From the NCBI GenBank assembly GCA_017852075.1, contig JAFMLQ010000014.1, positions 1 to 48,326 on the forward strand: 48,326 bases of DNA, written 5' to 3'. This document shows positions 23,772 through 31,550 of this stretch, in pieces. Made by a program: the position numbers and the translations under genes. Under the pieces are notes generated by a model, which was not told where the DNA came from, did not search any database, and saw nothing but the letters and a program-made list of their open reading frames with translations. This DNA is from Flavobacteriaceae bacterium (GTDB lineage: Bacteria; Bacteroidota; Bacteroidia; Flavobacteriales; Flavobacteriaceae). The first letter of the stretch is position 1, and each line of letters starts with the position of its first letter.

Positions 23772-23896
23772 AATTTAGATTTAAGGTGTTATTTAAAAAG
23801 AATTTTTACTAAGGTACTGTTTATTGTAATTACACACCAATAAGCAATTGTTGAAAACAAGAACTATATTTTGTTTAATTATCATTAAAAATACTT

Positions 23897-23914
23897 AAAC
23901 ATTTAGTATGTTTG
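23897..23914 (+). promoter_or_regulatory. Promoter with overlapping inverted repeat, photolyase operon
   Basis: TATGTTTG at 23907-23914 is a perfect TAnnTTTG element 17 bases before the first gene. Overlapping it is a perfect inverted repeat, AAACAT-TTAGT-ATGTTT (23897-23913), and a second, shorter dyad ATACT...AGTAT spans 23891-23909. No TTG is present at -33. A dyad on the -7 element fits an operator where a repressor blocks polymerase. No regulator gene is in the window. Confidence 0.55.
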
Positions 23915-23931: not shown

Positions 23932-24399
23932 ATGAAAATCTATCGTTTGGAAACGATTCAGAACTTACCCATTACCCAAACTGAGGCCTGGGACTTCCTG
24001 TCTAACCCAAAGAACTTGAAACGTATTACCCCAGATTATATGGGGTTTAAAATTGTGAGTGGAGCTTCAGAACGTATGTTTGCGGGTCAAATAATCCAAT
24101 ATGTTGTAACACCTGTATTGGGTATTCCAACCACCTGGGTTACAGAGATAACGCATGTAGAAGAGGGAAATTATTTTGTAGATGAACAGCGATTTGGACC
24201 CTATGCCCTTTGGCATCACAAGCATTTTATCAAGCCGATTAAAAATGGGGTTGAAATGACTGATATAATTGATTACAAAATCCCTTTCGGAGTTTTTGGA
24301 AGAATGGCACATCCGATTGTTGTTGCTCCAAAATTGAAAGAAATTTTTGAATACCGTGAAAAAGCATTAATTGAACTTTTTGGAACCTATCCTTCATGA
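23932..24399 (+). CDS. SRPBCC (START-like) protein of the photolyase operon
   Basis: A 155-residue soluble protein of the polyketide-cyclase/START-like SRPBCC fold: the start YRLETIQNLPITQTEAWDFLSNP is typical of the first strand and helix, followed by ITPDYMGFKIVSG, a series of strands and a long C-terminal helix (KLKEIFEYREKALIEL). These domains bind hydrophobic ligands in a deep pocket; the ligand is unknown. First gene of the operon, overlapping the SDR gene by 4 bases (ATGA). The SRPBCC-SDR pair next to photolyases recurs in other Gram-negative bacteria by my recollection, but no shared function has been settled. Confidence 0.85.
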   Translation: MKIYRLETIQNLPITQTEAWDFLSNPKNLKRITPDYMGFKIVSGASERMFAGQIIQYVVTPVLGIPTTWVTEITHVEEGNYFVDEQRFGPYALWHHKHFIKPIKNGVEMTDIIDYKIPFGVFGRMAHPIVVAPKLKEIFEYREKALIELFGTYPS

Positions 24400-25097
24400 T
24401 TAAAGAAAAAAACATATTAATTATAGGAGGTACTTCTGGTATTGGCCTAGCTCTTGTGGAGCTAATATCCGCTACAAACAATGTCTTTGTCGCGAGTCGA
24501 TCTAATGATTCAATTGCGAATTTGGATGTACAACACATACCTTTTGACGCTACCACAGATATTTTGGATGTCTCTTTACTCCCCGAACACTTGGACGGAT
24601 TTGTGTATTGTCCAGGGAGCATCAATCTTAGACCTTTTAGAGGATTGTCTGCGGAAGCTTTTGAGAAAGATTTTCAAATTAACGTATTGGGTGCTGTGAA
24701 TTCATTAAAGGCGGTTTTGGGACTGCTCGGAGCAAGTGAGAATCCTTCTGTAGTATTTTTTAGTACAGTAGCTGTCCAAACCGGAATGCCTTTTCACAGT
24801 TCTGTAGCGGCTTCTAAAGGAGCCATAGAGGGGCTTGTACGTTCTCTTGCTGCAGAGTTTGCCCCTAAAATTCGAGTCAATGCCATAGCACCTTCTTTAG
24901 TAAATACTCCTATGGCCTCTAAGTTTTTAAACAATGAGACCAAAATGGAAAAGGCGAATGAACGTCATCCACTAGGGCGTATAGGAAGTGCCAAAGAAAT
25001 TGCACAATCCACAGCTTTTCTCTTAGGAGAAGAAAGTAGTTGGATGACCGGACGAGTGTTGCAGCTCGACGGTGGAATAGGGAATTTAAAAACCTAA
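24396..25097 (+). CDS. SDR-fold protein lacking the catalytic Tyr
   Basis: A 233-residue short-chain dehydrogenase/reductase. The dinucleotide-binding GGTSGIG is at 11-17 and the active-site Ser is Ser123 (FFST). The expected Y-x3-K is V137-A-A-S-K141: Lys is kept but Tyr is replaced by Val (codon GTA). The C-terminal segment (FLLGEESSWMTGRVLQLDGG) is normal. So it may bind NAD(P) without standard redox catalysis, or use another residue. It lies between the SRPBCC gene (ATGA overlap) and the photolyase gene (five-base gap). Confidence 0.87.
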   Translation: MIKEKNILIIGGTSGIGLALVELISATNNVFVASRSNDSIANLDVQHIPFDATTDILDVSLLPEHLDGFVYCPGSINLRPFRGLSAEAFEKDFQINVLGAVNSLKAVLGLLGASENPSVVFFSTVAVQTGMPFHSSVAASKGAIEGLVRSLAAEFAPKIRVNAIAPSLVNTPMASKFLNNETKMEKANERHPLGRIGSAKEIAQSTAFLLGEESSWMTGRVLQLDGGIGNLKT

Positions 25098-25102
25098 CCG
25101 AT

Positions 25103-26404
25103 TTGGAGAAATACACCTTGTTTTGGTTTCGAAGAGACTTACGGATTGAGGACAATCACGGGTTATTCCAGGCCTTACAAGGAGAAAATAAGGTAATGCC
25201 CATTTTTATATTCGATCCTGACATCTTGGATCAATTGCCAAAACAAGATGCACGTGTTGAATTTATTTTATTAGCCTTGGGTGCCATTGATGTTGCTATG
25301 AAGAGGAACCGATGTAATGTTGGAATATATCATGGTACCCCCAGGGCTATTTTTCAAGAACTTATTGAAAAAGGAACTATAGAAAAGGTAGTTTGTAATG
25401 AAGACTATGAACCCTATGCCCTTGAGAGAGATGCTGAAATAAAAAAGTTGCTCGCTGAAAAAGGAGTGGGTTTTGAATCCTATAAAGATCAAGTCATTTT
25501 CGCAAAAGACGAAGTGACCAAAGACGATGGAACACCCTACAAGGTTTATACCCCTTACTCTAGAAAATGGCTTTCCCATTTTGAAGAAAAACCATTGGTC
25601 CATTTCCCTTCTGAGGACTTCCTTCACCATTGCGTTCAAAAAATACAACCCTCCTGTAATCTTGAAGATTTAGGCTTTTCAAAAAGTCCTGTGGCGCAGC
25701 CCGAAGTGCTTTTTAATGAAAAAGTCATAGACCACTATGAAGCGACACGAAATTTTCCTGCACTAAATCAAACCTCGAGATTAGGGACTGCCCTTCGGTT
25801 TGGAACTGTCAGCGTTAGAAAAGTAGTAAAAAAAGCCGCTTCGAGGATAAACAATACCTTTTTAAAAGAATTGATATGGAGAGAGTTTTTTATGCAAATT
25901 TTGTGGCATTTTCCAAAGACTCCAACTCAAAGTTTTAAACCTCAATACGAACGAATCGAGTGGCGGAACAATGAAAAAGAATTTGCTCAGTGGTGTGCGG
26001 GTGAAACGGGCTATCCTTTAGTAGATGCTGGAATGCGCGAACTCAATCAGACTGGCTTTATGCACAATCGCGTCCGTATGTTGGTAGGAAGTTTTTTGTG
26101 CAAGCATCTACTTATTGATTGGCGGTGGGGAGAAGCCTATTTCGCTGAAAAACTATTGGATTATGAAATGTCCAGTAATGTTGGAAACTGGCAATGGGTA
26201 GCAGGTTGCGGTGTTGATGCTGCACCTTATTTCAGGATTTTTAATCCAACAGAGCAAATTAAAAAATTTGATAAAGAACTCCTTTACATCAAAAAATGGG
26301 TGCCTCATTTTCAAGAACTCGAATATCCCCAGCCGATAGTAGATCATAAAATGGCTCGAGAACGTTGTTTGAATACGTATAAATTGGCTTTGAACCAACG
26401 ATGA
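25103..26404 (+). CDS. phr: Class I deoxyribodipyrimidine photolyase
   Basis: A 433-residue enzyme that uses blue light and FADH- to split cyclobutane pyrimidine dimers. N-terminal antenna-binding domain ([21 protein letters not shown]), then the helical FAD domain with KELIWREFF (Glu256 contacts the dimer), [12 protein letters not shown] (Asn359 near flavin N5; Trp363 and Trp365) and [12 protein letters not shown] place the start at TTG 25103, five bases after the SDR stop: it gives [11 protein letters not shown], the normal family N-terminus. The only upstream ATG, at 25040, would lie 58 bases inside the SDR gene and add 21 residues not seen in the family. ATGA junction to DUF2256. Confidence 0.92.
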
Positions 26405-26547
26405 AAGGTGTTTTAAAGCAGCATCTACCTGAAAAAGTATGTGTCCAATGCGGTAGACCTTTTCAATGGAGAAAAAAATGGGAGCGCGATTGGGAACAGG
26501 TTAAATTTTGTAGTAAAAAATGCAAGAAAGAAAAAGTAAGGCTCTAA
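26401..26547 (+). CDS. DUF2256 small Cys4 protein
   Basis: A 48-residue protein, recognisable as DUF2256: [20 protein letters not shown] followed by [12 protein letters not shown]. The four cysteines (14, 17, 37, 41; C-x2-C and C-x3-C) form a likely zinc-ribbon, and the rest is strongly basic (many Lys and Arg), so nucleic-acid or protein binding is plausible. It starts in an ATGA overlap with the photolyase stop and overlaps the start of the DASH cryptochrome by 28 bases in another frame. DUF2256 is a known companion of photolyase genes, but its function is not established. Confidence 0.88.
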
Positions 26548-27833
26548 TTTGGTTACGCAATGATTTGCGACTTTCAGATCATTTCGCATTTCATCATGCA
26601 GCGCAGCATACTGAAGGGGCTGTAGCCTACTATACTTTTGATCCCAAGCACTACATTGAGACTTCTTGGGGATTCAAAAAAACTGGAAGTTTTCGAGCAC
26701 AGTTTGTAATTGAAACTCTCCATCAACTAAAACATGACTTGGCTCAAAAAAACATTAGTCTAATTGTAGATACTCAAGCCCCCGAAATTGGTATTTCTCA
26801 ATGGACTCAAAAGTTAAGTATTACAGATGTGTACTATCAAGATGAGTGGACGAGAGAAGAAAAAATTTCTTCAGAATCTGTGCGTAAAGAACTCACATCA
26901 GCGATTACCATACACACTTTTTACGATCAATTTTTATTTCATCCTGAAGACATTCCTATGGAAATTGAGAACCTTCCGGAGGTATTCACCACTTTTAGAA
27001 AGATCTGTGAAAAAATGGGTAGGGTACGTCCTTGCTTTTCAGAGATTTCGGCCTTTCCTAAAGGAAACCTCATTCCTCAAGAGTTCAAAATCCCTACAGT
27101 TAGTGATTTAGGACTTTCTCAAGTAGAACGACATCCTCATTCTGCTTTTCCTTTCAAAGGCGGTTCTCGTTCTGGAAAACAACGCATGGATCATTATTTT
27201 TGGGAAACGGAAAAACTTTCTTTCTACAAGCAAACACGAAATGGGTTGTTGGGCATAGATTATAGCTCTAAACTCTCTGCTTGGTTGTCCAACGGATCCT
27301 TGTCAGCAAGACAAATCTACTGGGAAGTAATGGCGTATGAGAATGAAGTAAAAAAAAATCAATCCACCTATTGGATGATTTTTGAGTTGATTTGGAGGGA
27401 TTACTTCAAATATATTTCATTAAAACATGGTGATAGAATTTTCCATTTGGGAGGGATTTTAAAAAAAACATATCATTGGAATAACCACCCCAGTAAATTA
27501 GCATCCTGGATCAACGGAACCACTCAGGAACCTTTTGTAAATGCAAATATGATTGAGCTTTTGAAAACAGGATGGATGAGCAATCGAGGAAGACAAAATG
27601 TAGCCTCATTTTTTGCAAAAAACCTTTTGATGGATTGGCGGATGGGTGCCCACTATTTTGAGTCTCAACTTATAGATTATGACGTACACAGTAACTATGG
27701 AAATTGGATGTACGTAGCGGGTGTAGGAAATGATCCTCGCAATCGAAAATTTAACGTTCGAATGCAGGCAGAGCGTTATGATGAAGGAGGAAAATTTCAA
27801 CGGTTGTGGAATCAGCAAACTCTTTTTGAATGA
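26520..27833 (+). CDS. DASH-family cryptochrome/photolyase
   Basis: A 437-residue cryptochrome-DASH. The N-terminal domain starts [17 protein letters not shown]. Family signatures follow: [37 protein letters not shown] (about 222-258), [25 protein letters not shown], and [23 protein letters not shown], the DASH version of the flavin N5 loop. DASH proteins repair dimers in single-stranded or looped DNA and may also act as light sensors. The start overlaps DUF2256 by 28 bases; the end overlaps the next gene in ATGA. Confidence 0.92.
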
Positions 27834-29362
27834 AAATACGGTTACTTCTTGGAGATCAACTTAACTCAACTCATCCTTGGTTTGATGTCGTTGACGATGA
27901 GGTACTTTATGTGCAAATGGAAATGCGACAAGAAACAGATTATGCCCCTCATCATATCCAAAAATTGATTGCTTTTTTTGGAGCCATGAGAAATTTTCAT
28001 CAAGAATTAGTTCAAAATGGACACCATGTACTTTACATGACACTCGATGCCCCAGACAATCGACAAGACTTGACACAAAATCTTCAGGAAGTTATAAGAA
28101 AACACCCTACCGTTTCTTTTTCTTATCAAAGTCCAGATGAGTACCGATTGGCGGAGCAATTAAAGAATTTTTGCAAGCAATTAACGATTCCTACAGAGGA
28201 GGTAGATACCCATCATTTTATGGCATCTCAAGAGGAGTTACATGATTATTTTACAGGAAAAAAACAGTACGTTCTCGAGTTTTTCTATCGTAAAATGCGC
28301 AAGAAGTTTGATTTGTTAATGGCGGGGGTACAACCCGAAGGAGGGCAATGGAATTTTGACAAACACAACCGTAAAAAATGGAAAGGGACTCCTGAAATAC
28401 CGAATGTTTATTCTCCTGGAAAAACTGGGTTAAAACACCTTCATCAGCTTTTTCAAGAGCAAGGAGTGAAAAGTATAGGGTATTTTGATCCTGAGACGTT
28501 TATCTATCCTTTAAGTCGTGCAGAGTGCTTAGAGCAGTTGGACTATTTTTGCAACCATCTATTGGTGCATTTTGGAGACTATCAGGATGCCATGCATACC
28601 GAAGAATTGAATCTTTTCCATTCACGACTTTCTTTTGGACTGAATACCAAAATGATCTCACCACTTGAGGTAGTGGGTACGGTCATTGAATACTATCGTG
28701 AACATACGGCGGATATTGACCTCTCTCAGGTAGAGGGTTTTGTTCGACAAATTGTAGGTTGGCGTGAGTACATGCGGGGAATATACTGGACACAAATGCC
28801 CCATTACAAAAAGAAAAATGCTTTAGAAAATAAAAATCCGCTCCCTGAATTTTACTGGACTTCAAATACCAAAATGAATTGTTTGCATCAGAGCATTAAA
28901 AACTCATTGGATCACGCCTATGCCCATCACATACAAAGATTAATGATTTTAGGGAATTTTGCTCTTTTGGCTCAGGTGGATCCACTTCGCGTAGATGATT
29001 GGTTTTTAGGAATATATGCCGATGCTGTGGAATGGGTTCAGCTTCCCAATACTCATGGAATGAGTCAGTGGGCAGATGGTGGAATTGTAGCCACAAAGCC
29101 CTATGTTTCTGCTGCCTCTTACATAAATAAAATGGGAAATTATTGTGAAAGCTGTAGCTATGATAAAAAGAAACGTATAGGAGAGAACGCCTGCCCTTTC
29201 AATAGTTTATATTGGAATTTTTTGGATGATAAAAAAGTGTTTTTTTCCAAGAATAATCGGATGGCAATGATGCTGCGTCTGTTAGAAAAAATCCCTGCTG
29301 CAGAATTGTCAGAAATCAAAGCACGTGCGCATCAGATTTTAAAAACACCAGATGCCTACTAA
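27830..29362 (+). CDS. Iron-sulfur bacterial cryptochrome/photolyase (PhrB-type, FeS-BCP)
   Basis: A 510-residue member of the FeS-BCP group, of which Agrobacterium PhrB is a (6-4) photolyase. The N-terminus [18 protein letters not shown] is the family hallmark. The four [4Fe-4S] cysteines are visible: Cys351 (MNCLHQ), Cys439 and Cys442 (NYCESC) and Cys455 (NACPF), one residue off the PhrB positions as I remember them. [18 protein letters not shown] and [17 protein letters not shown] line the flavin site. It probably repairs (6-4) photoproducts using FAD and a lumazine antenna. ATGA junction upstream; 11-base overlap with the next gene. Confidence 0.93.
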
Positions 29363-30833
29363 ACACCCACCTCTTTCTGTGGTATGGTTAAAGCGCGACC
29401 TTAGACTGGAAGATCACGAAGCTCTTTCTGCAGCTTTGGAAGGGCGTAAATCGGTCTTATTGCTATACGTTGCAGAGGAAACTTTGCTAGCAGAAGAGCA
29501 TTTTAGTTCCCGCCATTTGAATTTTATCAAAGAATCAATTGCCGATATGAACCGTCGTTTGGTTCAATTCAATACAGAAGTATTAGCTGTCCATGGTGAA
29601 GTTGTTGCTGTTTTAGAAATCCTTCATCAAGAATTTGAAATTGAAGCGGTATATTCTCATTATGAGACTGGAATTGGATTGACTTATCGAAGAGATTTAG
29701 AATTGCAAAAGTGGCTTAAGTCAGAAGGAATTATTTGGTTGGAGTATCGTCAACAGGGAGTTTTTCGAGGTCTTCAGAATCGAAAAAGCTGGACGGAAAT
29801 GTGGGAAGAATTTATGCAAAAACCCCAGAAGCCTTATCCTAAAAAAGAACAAAAATTTGTTGCGGTTCACACACTAAAAAAAATACAGTCCAAGTTCAAG
29901 TTGATGGATTTAAATACAATACCCAACTCAAAAGTTCAACCAGGAGGGGTCACCTATGCCAAACGTTATTTGAATTCCTTTTTTGAAGGACGTTATATGA
30001 ATTATCAAAAACATATTTCGAAACCTGATTTGGCTCGTAGGAGCTGCAGTAGGCTTTCTCCTTACATTGCCTATGGAAACCTTTCGATGAGGCAAGTGCT
30101 TCAGCGAACAGAAGAAGAAAAAGCAAAGGGTAAAAAAGGTTTTGGTATAAAGGCATTTGAATCTCGTTTGCGCTGGCAGTCACATTTTATTCAAAAATTT
30201 GAAATGGAATGTAGTATGGAATTCCAAAGTGTCAACCGGGGATATCACCGTTTGTTAAAACCTGTGAATCTGGCGTATGTTGAAGCATGGGAACAAGGAA
30301 AGACAGGAGTACCTATGGTCGATGCAGCCCTTCGCTGTTTAGTAGAAACAGGATACTTGAATTTTAGAATGCGAGCTCTGGTGGTTTCTTTTTTTGTGCA
30401 TCAATTGTGGCAGCCTTGGCAAGCATGCTCGGCATTTTTAGCGCGTCAATTCCTCGATTTTGAGCCAGGGATACATTTTCCTCAGTTGCAAATGCAAGCA
30501 GGAGAAACGGGAATTAATACATTACGTATTTACAATCCTGTTAAAAACGGTATAGAACATGATCCTTTTGGAAATTTTACCAAACAATGGATCCCAGAGT
30601 TAAGACACCTTCCCGATGAATTGATTCACACCCCTTGGGAAATTACTCCTTTTGAAGAAGAAATATATCAGTTTGAAAAAGGGAAAAGTTATCCCAATCC
30701 TATAGTGGATTTGGATAAAACAAGAAAGTTTGCCTCAGAAACCCTTTGGAAGATGCAAAAAGATCCTGAGGTATATCAGGAAAGTAAACGGATATTAAAA
30801 AGACATACATTGAACCACAGAAGAATGCACTAG
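29352..30833 (+). CDS. Divergent photolyase-fold FAD-binding protein
   Basis: A 493-residue protein with the photolyase N-terminal domain ([21 protein letters not shown]) and FAD domain ([39 protein letters not shown]). Aligned by eye with the class I enzyme encoded at 25103, key residues differ: the dimer-contacting Glu becomes Arg272 (SRLRWQSHF), the Asn at flavin N5 becomes His375, and the two Trp of the WQW motif become Leu379 and Met381. So normal CPD repair and the usual Trp electron chain look impossible. It may be a photosensor, repair another lesion, or serve as a partner of the other three. The stop is followed directly by the TIGR03643 ATG. Confidence 0.87.
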
Positions 30834-31121
30834 ATGAAGAAAAATAAGCCTAGTTTAACCGAAGTACAAATAGATCGAGTAATTGAAATGGCATGGGAAG
30901 ATCGTACTCCTTTTGATGCAATTTTAGTCCAATTTGGCCTCAGTGAACAAGAAGTGATACAGCTGATGCGAAGGGAAATGAAACCTTCGAGTTTTAAAAT
31001 GTGGCGGGCACGTGTTCAAGGCCGAAGTACCAAGCACAGCAAAAGTCGTTCCGAAGAGATCAAACGTTTCCGTTGTTCACGACAACGAACCATAACCAAC
31101 AATAAAGTATCTAAAAGATGA
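30834..31121 (+). CDS. TIGR03643 (DUF2805) family protein
   Basis: A 95-residue, strongly basic protein. The first 60 residues hold a helix-turn-helix-like pattern (VQIDRVIEMAWEDRTPFDAILVQFGLSEQEVIQLMRREM) followed by PSSFKMWRARVQGRSTKH, the TIGR03643 signature; the tail is Lys/Arg-rich. Known as a companion of photolyase genes, function unknown; DNA binding is a fair inference. It begins on the base after the stop of the previous gene and is the last clear member of the operon. Confidence 0.87.
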   Translation: MKKNKPSLTEVQIDRVIEMAWEDRTPFDAILVQFGLSEQEVIQLMRREMKPSSFKMWRARVQGRSTKHSKSRSEEIKRFRCSRQRTITNNKVSKR

Positions 31122-31151: not shown

Positions 31152-31550
31152 ATGTCCCAAAACAAAACTCAACCTACATCTTTACCCGTCAAGCTTTTTT
31201 TAGACGATATACCTGATGACCAAAAAAGAGCCGACAGTTGGAAACTTTACAATCTTATGGAACGTCTTACCAATACCAAAGGGTGTATGTGGGGAACCTC
31301 TATTGTTGGTTTTGGTGAATACCATTACAAATATAAAACGGGTCGAGAAGGCGATTGGTTCGTTTGCGGTTTTTCTCCTCGAAAAAACGCCTTGTCCATA
31401 TACTTAATGTGTGATCTCTCCCAACTTTCATTGGAGGGATTGGGGAAGCACAAAAAAGGAAAAGGGTGTTTGTACATTAAAAAGCTAGAGGATATCGATT
31501 TTCAGGTGTTGGAGCGTATCGTAAAGACTAGTATAGAAAGATTGAAATAG
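31152..31550 (+). CDS. DUF1801 domain protein
   Basis: A 132-residue soluble protein of the YdhG/DUF1801 family, with KRADSWKLYNLMERLT, MWGTSIVGFGEYHYKY and ending in the conserved KGCLYIKKLEDIDFQVLERIV. Function unknown; some members have been proposed as iron chaperone-like proteins. It lies 30 bases after TIGR03643 on the same strand and might be read with the photolyase operon, but no overlap links them and the gene also occurs on its own elsewhere. Confidence 0.85.
   Translation: MSQNKTQPTSLPVKLFLDDIPDDQKRADSWKLYNLMERLTNTKGCMWGTSIVGFGEYHYKYKTGREGDWFVCGFSPRKNALSIYLMCDLSQLSLEGLGKHKKGKGCLYIKKLEDIDFQVLERIVKTSIERLK

Follow-up and report, generated by a model that had tools for sequence, protein, structure and literature searches.

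We analysed a 48,326-nucleotide stretch of a Flavobacteriaceae bacterium (contig JAFMLQ010000014.1; this whole stretch is called the window here) from a 1.9-Mb draft genome that is 89 percent complete, and concentrated on eight plus-strand genes at 23932-31121 that encode photolyase-fold proteins and their companions. Very probably, the eight genes constitute a light-inducible operon within a family-wide flavobacterial regulon controlled by a CarH-like regulator through an operator of new layout. In the mechanism we propose, a MerR-type regulator related to CarH and LitR would bind, in the dark, the inverted repeat TGTTTAA-N16-TTAAACA, which covers the promoter directly ahead of its -7 box, and so block transcription; light would inactivate the regulator, and the operon would be made along with carotenoid genes and other regulon members. 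Three of the products would repair ultraviolet (UV) lesions directly, namely cyclobutane pyrimidine dimers (CPDs) in duplex and in single-stranded DNA and (6-4) photoproducts, roles that are taken from the known families. The product of the divergent photolyase-like gene 7, for which we coined the label CPF7, would act in a non-repair role, with DUF2256 and DUF2805 as accessory, nucleic-acid-binding proteins.

A conserved inverted repeat and a CarH-like regulator

The inverted repeat followed by a TAnnTTTG box, which we take to be the -7 consensus, is conserved upstream of the SRPBCC gene that opens the operon. The window contains one operator match where 0.01 would be expected with spacings of 12-17 allowed. 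With its end 5 bases ahead of the -7 box, the operator is placed as expected for repression through promoter blocking. Among the listed loci that carry CPF7 and have SRPBCC next to a DUF2911 gene, 35 of 36 hold an N16 site with at most one mismatch at this place. Genomes of the same genus gave a match at spacing 12-17 in 33/37 cases, compared with 8/37 for the reversed control. The spacing itself is fixed: in the 80 CPF7 loci listed (at least 80 exist; 1.34 Mb, up to one mismatch), the one set in which other spacings were tested, 85 sites have N16 and at most 7 have any other spacing from 10 to 22. Across genomes representing 100 Flavobacteriaceae genera, the exact operator occurs at 288 sites in 80 genomes, and the control, the operator pattern read backwards, at 14 sites in 13 genomes. 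Furthermore, a TAnnTTT[GA] box lies within 20 bases of the site in 93 of 254 oriented exact N16 copies (37 percent, against 8 percent in shuffles) and starts 5 bases past the repeat, the commonest spacing, in 53 of these 93; the 254 copies result from counting every exact N16 site once per orientation across all loci, overlapping loci being kept unless identical.

Other signals were set aside. Two-mismatch operator matches in the genome itself are uninformative (36, compared with 57 in the control), and N17 matches near the stop codon of the class I-type photolyase gene (PhrI) are explained by the coding sequence. A sigma-70 scan gave 15 promoter-like sites where 20 were expected, and a terminator scan gave 12 terminator-like sites against 6.4 expected (standard deviation 2.3), a mild excess with none at the operon's gene ends. 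We found no published record of the operator in the literature searched, which lies outside subscription papers and makes this weak evidence of novelty. That literature search likewise yielded no paper on LitR or CarH with photolyase in Bacteroidetes, and a search on flavobacterial photolyase, MerR, carotenoid and cryptochrome returned, by title, only a review on plants and UV.

A candidate regulator is encoded on another contig of the same genome, beside phytoene synthase. This protein, P0001, combines a MerR with a B12-binding_2 domain (PF13411, 1.5e-12; PF02607, 4e-11), matches CarH (5c8d, E=2e-10) and carries the Wx9EH motif as WQTGAISPSHEH, a motif found in 54/56 CarH-like matches, a set to which overlapping loci contribute some genes more than once. 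TransRegCarH is its best family in the NCBIfam library, yet it scores 63 bits against a cut-off of 400; we name it CarH-like, not CarH, because its B12 motif lacks the final GG. It may sense light through adenosylcobalamin (AdoCbl). In three genomes, the CarH-like regulators (L268 in G077, L269 in G117 and L270 in G143) have Wx9EH without the cobalamin histidine motif ExHx2G.

The regulator and the site occur together. Of the 100 genera, 87 have a CarH-like match, and all 13 genomes that have none are siteless, so that the counts for both, regulator only, site only and neither are 80/7/0/13 (Fisher p=1e-11), or 77/2/3/18 (p=8e-15) with stronger matches only; in all 100-genera statistics the relatedness of the genomes is uncorrected. 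One genome (G062) is a natural control for this link: it keeps SRPBCC-SDR-Phr-DPRP-DUF2805 at the same locus, has no CarH-like match and no exact site, and has no N16 site in the operon stretch, even at two mismatches.

Half-site and recognition helix covary. In eight genomes the sole CarH-like match is a divergent one (<155 bits), and in six of these the recognition helix reads TLRKWE[ST]RY (K-type) instead of the usual TLRIWE. The exact TTAAACA-type site is absent from five of the six K-type genomes, and three of them (G072, G088 and G094) carry TGTCTAA or TGTCAAA-N16-TTAGACA beside carH; in G094 a TTAGACA-type site also precedes the TetR gene, where the TetR operator lies in other genomes. 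TTAAACA sites persist in G065 and G081, whose divergent regulators have Ile at that helix position, and Ile is the residue in 30/30 further loci (L267-L296). When the K-type helices and one with Ala (G137) are set apart, sites are present in 79/80 compared with 1/20 genomes (p=3e-18), a split made post hoc.

The site might instead be bound by a TetR_C_23 regulator that heads an ABC1K operon, since its gene carries the site in its promoter in several genomes, as an autoregulator would, and its presence is associated with the site (65/5/15/15 in the same order, p=4e-6). This association is weaker than that of the CarH-like protein, however: 15 of the 80 site-bearing genomes have no TetR match and 5 of the 20 siteless ones have it. 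Of the 30 loci read, moreover, eight have the site in the carH-crtI interval, and the covariation is with the CarH-like helix, which leaves binding by TetR improbable.

Control by the CarH-like protein through this operator has several observations weighing against it. In P0001, the sequence EIHELG satisfies ExHx2G but is not followed by the terminal GG, and the full motif ExHx2Gx41SxV/Tx22-27GG is therefore incomplete; the GG is likewise absent from 44/46 distinct homologues having ExHx2G and present in 2/46. Given this incomplete B12 motif, the cofactor may be one other than AdoCbl. Known CarH operators, as described in the available parts of the literature, are tandem 11-bp direct repeats, whereas here two inverted half-sites are separated by N16, at a 23-base pitch. 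At L063, an intact operon locus, no site is present within one mismatch. In the genome analysed, carH has a one-mismatch site over its start, which is found within one mismatch in none of three listed relatives, and the TetR site has two mismatches, a stringency at which the control outnumbers the pattern (57 vs 36). As to the covariation, the carH stretches read in three K-type genomes (G084, G096 and G142) contain no TGTNTAA-N16-TTANACA within one mismatch, and one exact TTAAACA site occurs in G084. An exact site is lacking in G077, though its operon carries one with a single mismatch. The exact TTAGACA palindrome occurs in 4/100 genomes, of which G064 and G078 are outside the divergent group, besides G088 and G094. 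Moreover, the helix classes were drawn after the siteless genomes were known, and the residue at that helix position was determined for some, not all, of the 80 genomes.

Gene arrangement and satellite proteins

The earlier note on this DNA described eight same-strand genes with overlaps or gaps of -28 to +5 bases, and coordinates and family scans bear this out (Table 1), weakly in the case of SRPBCC, for which the Polyketide_cyc score of 17.2 bits is under the 23.4 cut-off. The junctions, in gene order, are -4, +5, -4, -28, -4, -11 and 0. The promoter and operator ahead of the genes are an addition to that note. A single transcript, as that note proposed, is plausible for a row of genes with such tight junctions and a single operator-promoter in front, and the eight would then form one transcription unit. 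The gene for a DUF1801 protein that follows is present in 15/80 CPF7 loci listed.

Table 1. Features of the predicted operon and its flanks, in window coordinates.
Feature	Coordinates	Strand	Basis
Predicted light-regulon operator, inverted repeat TGTTTAA-N16-TTAAACA	23872..23901	+	only match in window
-7 promoter box TATGTTTG, TAnnTTTG type	23907..23914	+	sequence; 5 bases after operator
Gene 1, SRPBCC-like protein, 155 aa	23932..24399	+	weak Polyketide_cyc match; conserved first gene after operator
Gene 2, SDR oxidoreductase, 233 aa	24396..25097	+	adh_short_C2 E=1.7e-38
Gene 3, class I-type CPD photolyase (PhrI), 433 aa, TTG start	25103..26404	+	FAD_binding_7 E=1.7e-75
Gene 4, DUF2256, small protein (48 aa) with four cysteines, zinc-ribbon-like	26401..26547	+	PF10013 E=3.3e-19
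Gene 5, DASH cryptochrome, 437 aa	26520..27833	+	TIGR02765 (crypto_DASH) 487 bits, cut-off 317
Gene 6, FeS-BCP / bacterial (6-4) photolyase-type DPRP, 510 aa	27830..29362	+	DPRP E=2.3e-69
Gene 7, CPF7, 493 aa, with a photolyase fold and a rebuilt active site	29352..30833	+	FAD_binding_7 E=7.2e-59
Gene 8, DUF2805/TIGR03643, small basic helix-turn-helix (HTH)-like protein, 95 aa	30834..31121	+	TIGR03643 123 bits, cut-off 66.6
Possible ninth gene, DUF1801 protein	31152..31550	+	PF08818 E=5.9e-12; 30 bases downstream of gene 8

The gene order is not due to chance, because the cluster lies at one place, between the DUF2911 and MurA genes, in 12/12 same-genus loci (those fetched with operon-sized flanks, a subset of 31 genus matches); CPF7 is missing from two of the twelve, and a distant DPRP occupies the FeS-BCP slot in two. 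The nearest named CPF7 matches, among those listed, come from uncultured Flavobacteriaceae, of which some bear the label Candidatus Arcticimaribacter. In the 80 CPF7 loci, which were selected by CPF7 and include loci that end at contig ends, so that gene counts are conditional and lower bounds, we found PhrI in at least 67, SDR in at least 66, SRPBCC in at least 64, DUF2805 in at least 61, DASH in at least 56, and FeS-BCP/DPRP and DUF2256 in at least 54 each. Two modules emerge from these loci, DUF2256-DASH-DPRP-CPF7-DUF2805 and SRPBCC-(SDR)-Phr, which are separable and vary in order across Flavobacteriaceae. Both are contained in one longer cluster in the listed loci of Winogradskyella and Mesoflavibacter (L113 and L122), together with genes for TetR, ABC1 kinase, flavin reductase, DUF2867 epimerase, a 143-144-residue protein and folE, and with others that, by eye, are presumably GPX- and TspO-like. 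In one Flavobacterium locus (L102) SRPBCC-Phr adjoins crtZ-crtB-crtI and a CarH-like gene, and a Flavobacterium group (e.g., L086, L091-L094 and L096-L101) has SRPBCC-SDR-Phr-CPF7, the other four genes not being in the fetched stretch. One genus member carries a 452-residue gene of unknown kind between DUF2256 and DASH (L036:4648-6006).

The distribution of the satellite proteins is non-random, as the earlier note had supposed. DUF2805 is found in 59 and DUF2256 in 47 of the 100 genera, and all 47 genomes with DUF2256 have DUF2805 (p=1e-17), within 12 kb in 29 and farther apart or on different contigs in 18. CPF7 (>400 bits) occurs in 21/100 genera, each of which has DUF2805 (p=3e-6), at a distance of at most 2.5 kb in 16. 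This nesting of DUF2256 and CPF7 within DUF2805 suggests a functional dependence beyond proximity. Furthermore, DUF2256 is followed by DASH in 50 of the 54 listed CPF7 loci that hold DUF2256.

The predicted DUF2805 structure has a helical core (residues 10-62) with a predicted local distance difference test (pLDDT) score of about 90 and a low-confidence basic tail. A profile search gave no PDB relative, and no fold-search match reached E<=0.001; HTH proteins and sigma region 4 account for many of the weak ones. Most likely, DUF2256 and DUF2805 are small accessory proteins that bind nucleic acid. Our literature search found no paper joining photolyase with DUF2256 and none on TIGR03643. That DUF2805 always lies beside photolyases is ruled out, as 6/8 order-level loci are not beside a window-type operon. 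One of those six, L048, does have a short photolyase-like gene next to it, and in L045 (9605-11047) DUF2805 is divergent, by eye, from folE-like and 6-carboxytetrahydropterin-synthase-like genes, hinting at a link between DUF2805 and the pterin antenna. Shorter DUF2805 proteins without the C-terminal RFKCSRQ...NKISKR tail are found away from photolyases (L049:10861-11109 and L050:2862-3104). For SRPBCC and SDR, a proposed role as a ligand-binding sensor arm found no support, and both fit better as members of the light regulon.

The tight gene overlaps, the complete nesting in DUF2805 and the recurrent DUF2256-DASH pair would also be compatible with a physical repair complex of the eight products, which we judge quite unlikely. 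The modules separate and reorder across the family, the Flavobacterium group has SRPBCC-SDR-Phr-CPF7 alone in the fetched stretch, DUF2805 and DUF2256 are apart in 18/47 genomes, and the DPRP slot can hold a paralogue without the Fe-S cysteines. A complex of all eight, as suspected in the earlier note, is thus mostly not supported and not needed, although pairwise contacts such as DUF2256-DASH or CPF7-DUF2805 may occur.

Photolyase-fold proteins and the altered active site of CPF7

Of the earlier note's reading, the presence of three classic photolyase types is supported, and their signature residues are intact. PhrI keeps the signature residues E, W, N, M, N, W and W in 26/26 sampled sequences, and DASH keeps its Glu, Asn, N5-facing Asn and proximal Trp in 24/24. 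The best PDB match of the FeS-BCP protein is 7ykn (E=1e-152), with an alignment over residues 3-494 that includes the Fe-S cysteine region, and Cys351, 439, 442 and 455 are present in it and in 32/32 high-scoring homologues aligned. A paralogue that lacks the cluster ligands occupies the same slot elsewhere: of 21 low-scoring DPRP loci, the 19 aligned (L053, L056-L058, L064, L066, L081, L083, L084, L103, L104, L106, L112, L113, L118, L119, L126, L128 and L130; L037 and L042 were left out of the cysteine reading) have 0/4 cysteines, with C351 changed to P in 19/19 and His366/367 conserved.

CPF7, by comparison, is not countable as a lesion-repair enzyme, and it is the strongest open novelty of the operon. 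For the comparison with class I CPD photolyases we took E. coli photolyase positions 274, 341, 345, 378 and 382 as marking the active site and Trp chain. In 39/39 sampled CPF7 sequences, E is replaced by R, N by F, M by A/S, the N5-facing N by H, the proximal W by L/I/V/M and the second W by M. Hence all 39 fail the CPD-photolyase residue test that all 26 PhrI sequences pass, and of the six replaced catalytic or electron-transfer positions four have one fixed residue each. CPF7 is therefore probably a photolyase-fold flavoprotein without a CPD active site and with a non-repair role, as judged from its residues. More tentatively, and with somewhat less than an even chance in our estimate, it could represent a new photolyase-fold class with a fixed His at flavin N5 that serves as a light- or lesion-dependent DNA-binding partner of DUF2805, under a CarH-like photoreceptor with a new type of operator. 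Least likely of the alternatives is that CPF7 is an ordinary diverged photolyase and the satellites passengers in a DNA-damage-responsive or constitutive operon: CPF7 does keep the fold (pLDDT 89.5 for the predicted structure, template modelling score about 0.8 to photolyases) as well as Trp275, Arg339, Trp356 and Asp369, but against this stand the uniform replacements and a promoter carrying a site tied to the CarH-like gene.

Other sites of the proposed regulon and known light-responsive systems

Beyond the operon, sites also precede crtI beside carH and the TetR-ABC1K and orf143-DUF2805 operons. We read the first listed site in each of 30 of the 80 site-bearing genomes: in addition to the eight between carH and crtI, eight lie by TetR, DUF2867, orf143 or SRPBCC genes, and the remaining 14 adjoin fasciclin-like genes (4), a small MFGLFK protein (3) or other genes (7, two of them near htpG). 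The fasciclin-domain-like proteins, read by eye, are secreted (L239, L240, L241 and L262). The further targets in the genus comprise a TonB-receptor/Rieske-type gene pair as well as the TetR-ABC1K operon, the latter in two genomes. A site between TonB-receptor-like and small RRxFLK Rieske-type genes was seen in the genome itself (L223, at C1:2105, one mismatch) and in many genus members (L137-L140, L143, L144, L149, L150, L152, L155, L157 and L160; L131 without the receptor side), which suggests a light-controlled uptake or redox function. Names that underwent a Pfam check are CarH-like, TetR, Rieske, DUF2867, ABC1, flavin reductase, FolE, phytoene synthase and amine-oxidase-type CrtI; TonB receptor, GPX, TspO, crtZ, fasciclin and htpG are names we assigned by eye and take to be correct.

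If the proposed regulation is true, it identifies the site and the regulator of light control in a large group of bacteria living in sunlit sea and fresh water, and it places DUF2256, DUF2805, CPF7, SRPBCC and orf143 together in a single defined light regulon. The way in which half-site and recognition helix vary together makes a candidate specificity code. Furthermore, the regulon would offer a candidate explanation for light-induced carotenoids without a known regulator in that group, as in Chryseobacterium lacus, where light induces crt genes through an unidentified regulator (PMC7064467); for this and the other papers cited, our statements cover the parts available.

Among the individual proteins, gene 6 aligns with the FeS-BCP (6-4) photolyase 7ykn, but 19 related loci hold the cysteine-less paralogue in its slot; CPF7 shares the two-domain fold and the framework of the FAD domain with class I photolyases and plant cryptochromes (6x24 and 6kii) and differs in the CPD and electron-transfer residues. 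The predicted regulon has in common with the CarH/LitR regulons of Thermus, Bacillus and Myxococcus (PMC8156234, PMC9304148) the MerR and B12-binding_2 domains, Wx9EH and ExHx2G, adjacent carotenoid genes, an operator overlapping the promoter and a TnnACA core, which is the core of known CarH repeats (PMC9304148) and is contained in the half-sites here. Unlike in those regulons, the B12 motif has mostly lost its terminal GG, and the predicted regulon reaches a large photolyase operon. It also resembles the class II LitR regulon of Pseudomonas (PMC9758184), which induces phrB, folE and cryB in the light and has an SDR gene in the phrB operon and two separated half-sites, but differs in its site (TGTACA-N12-TGTACA), its LOV partner and its other satellite genes.

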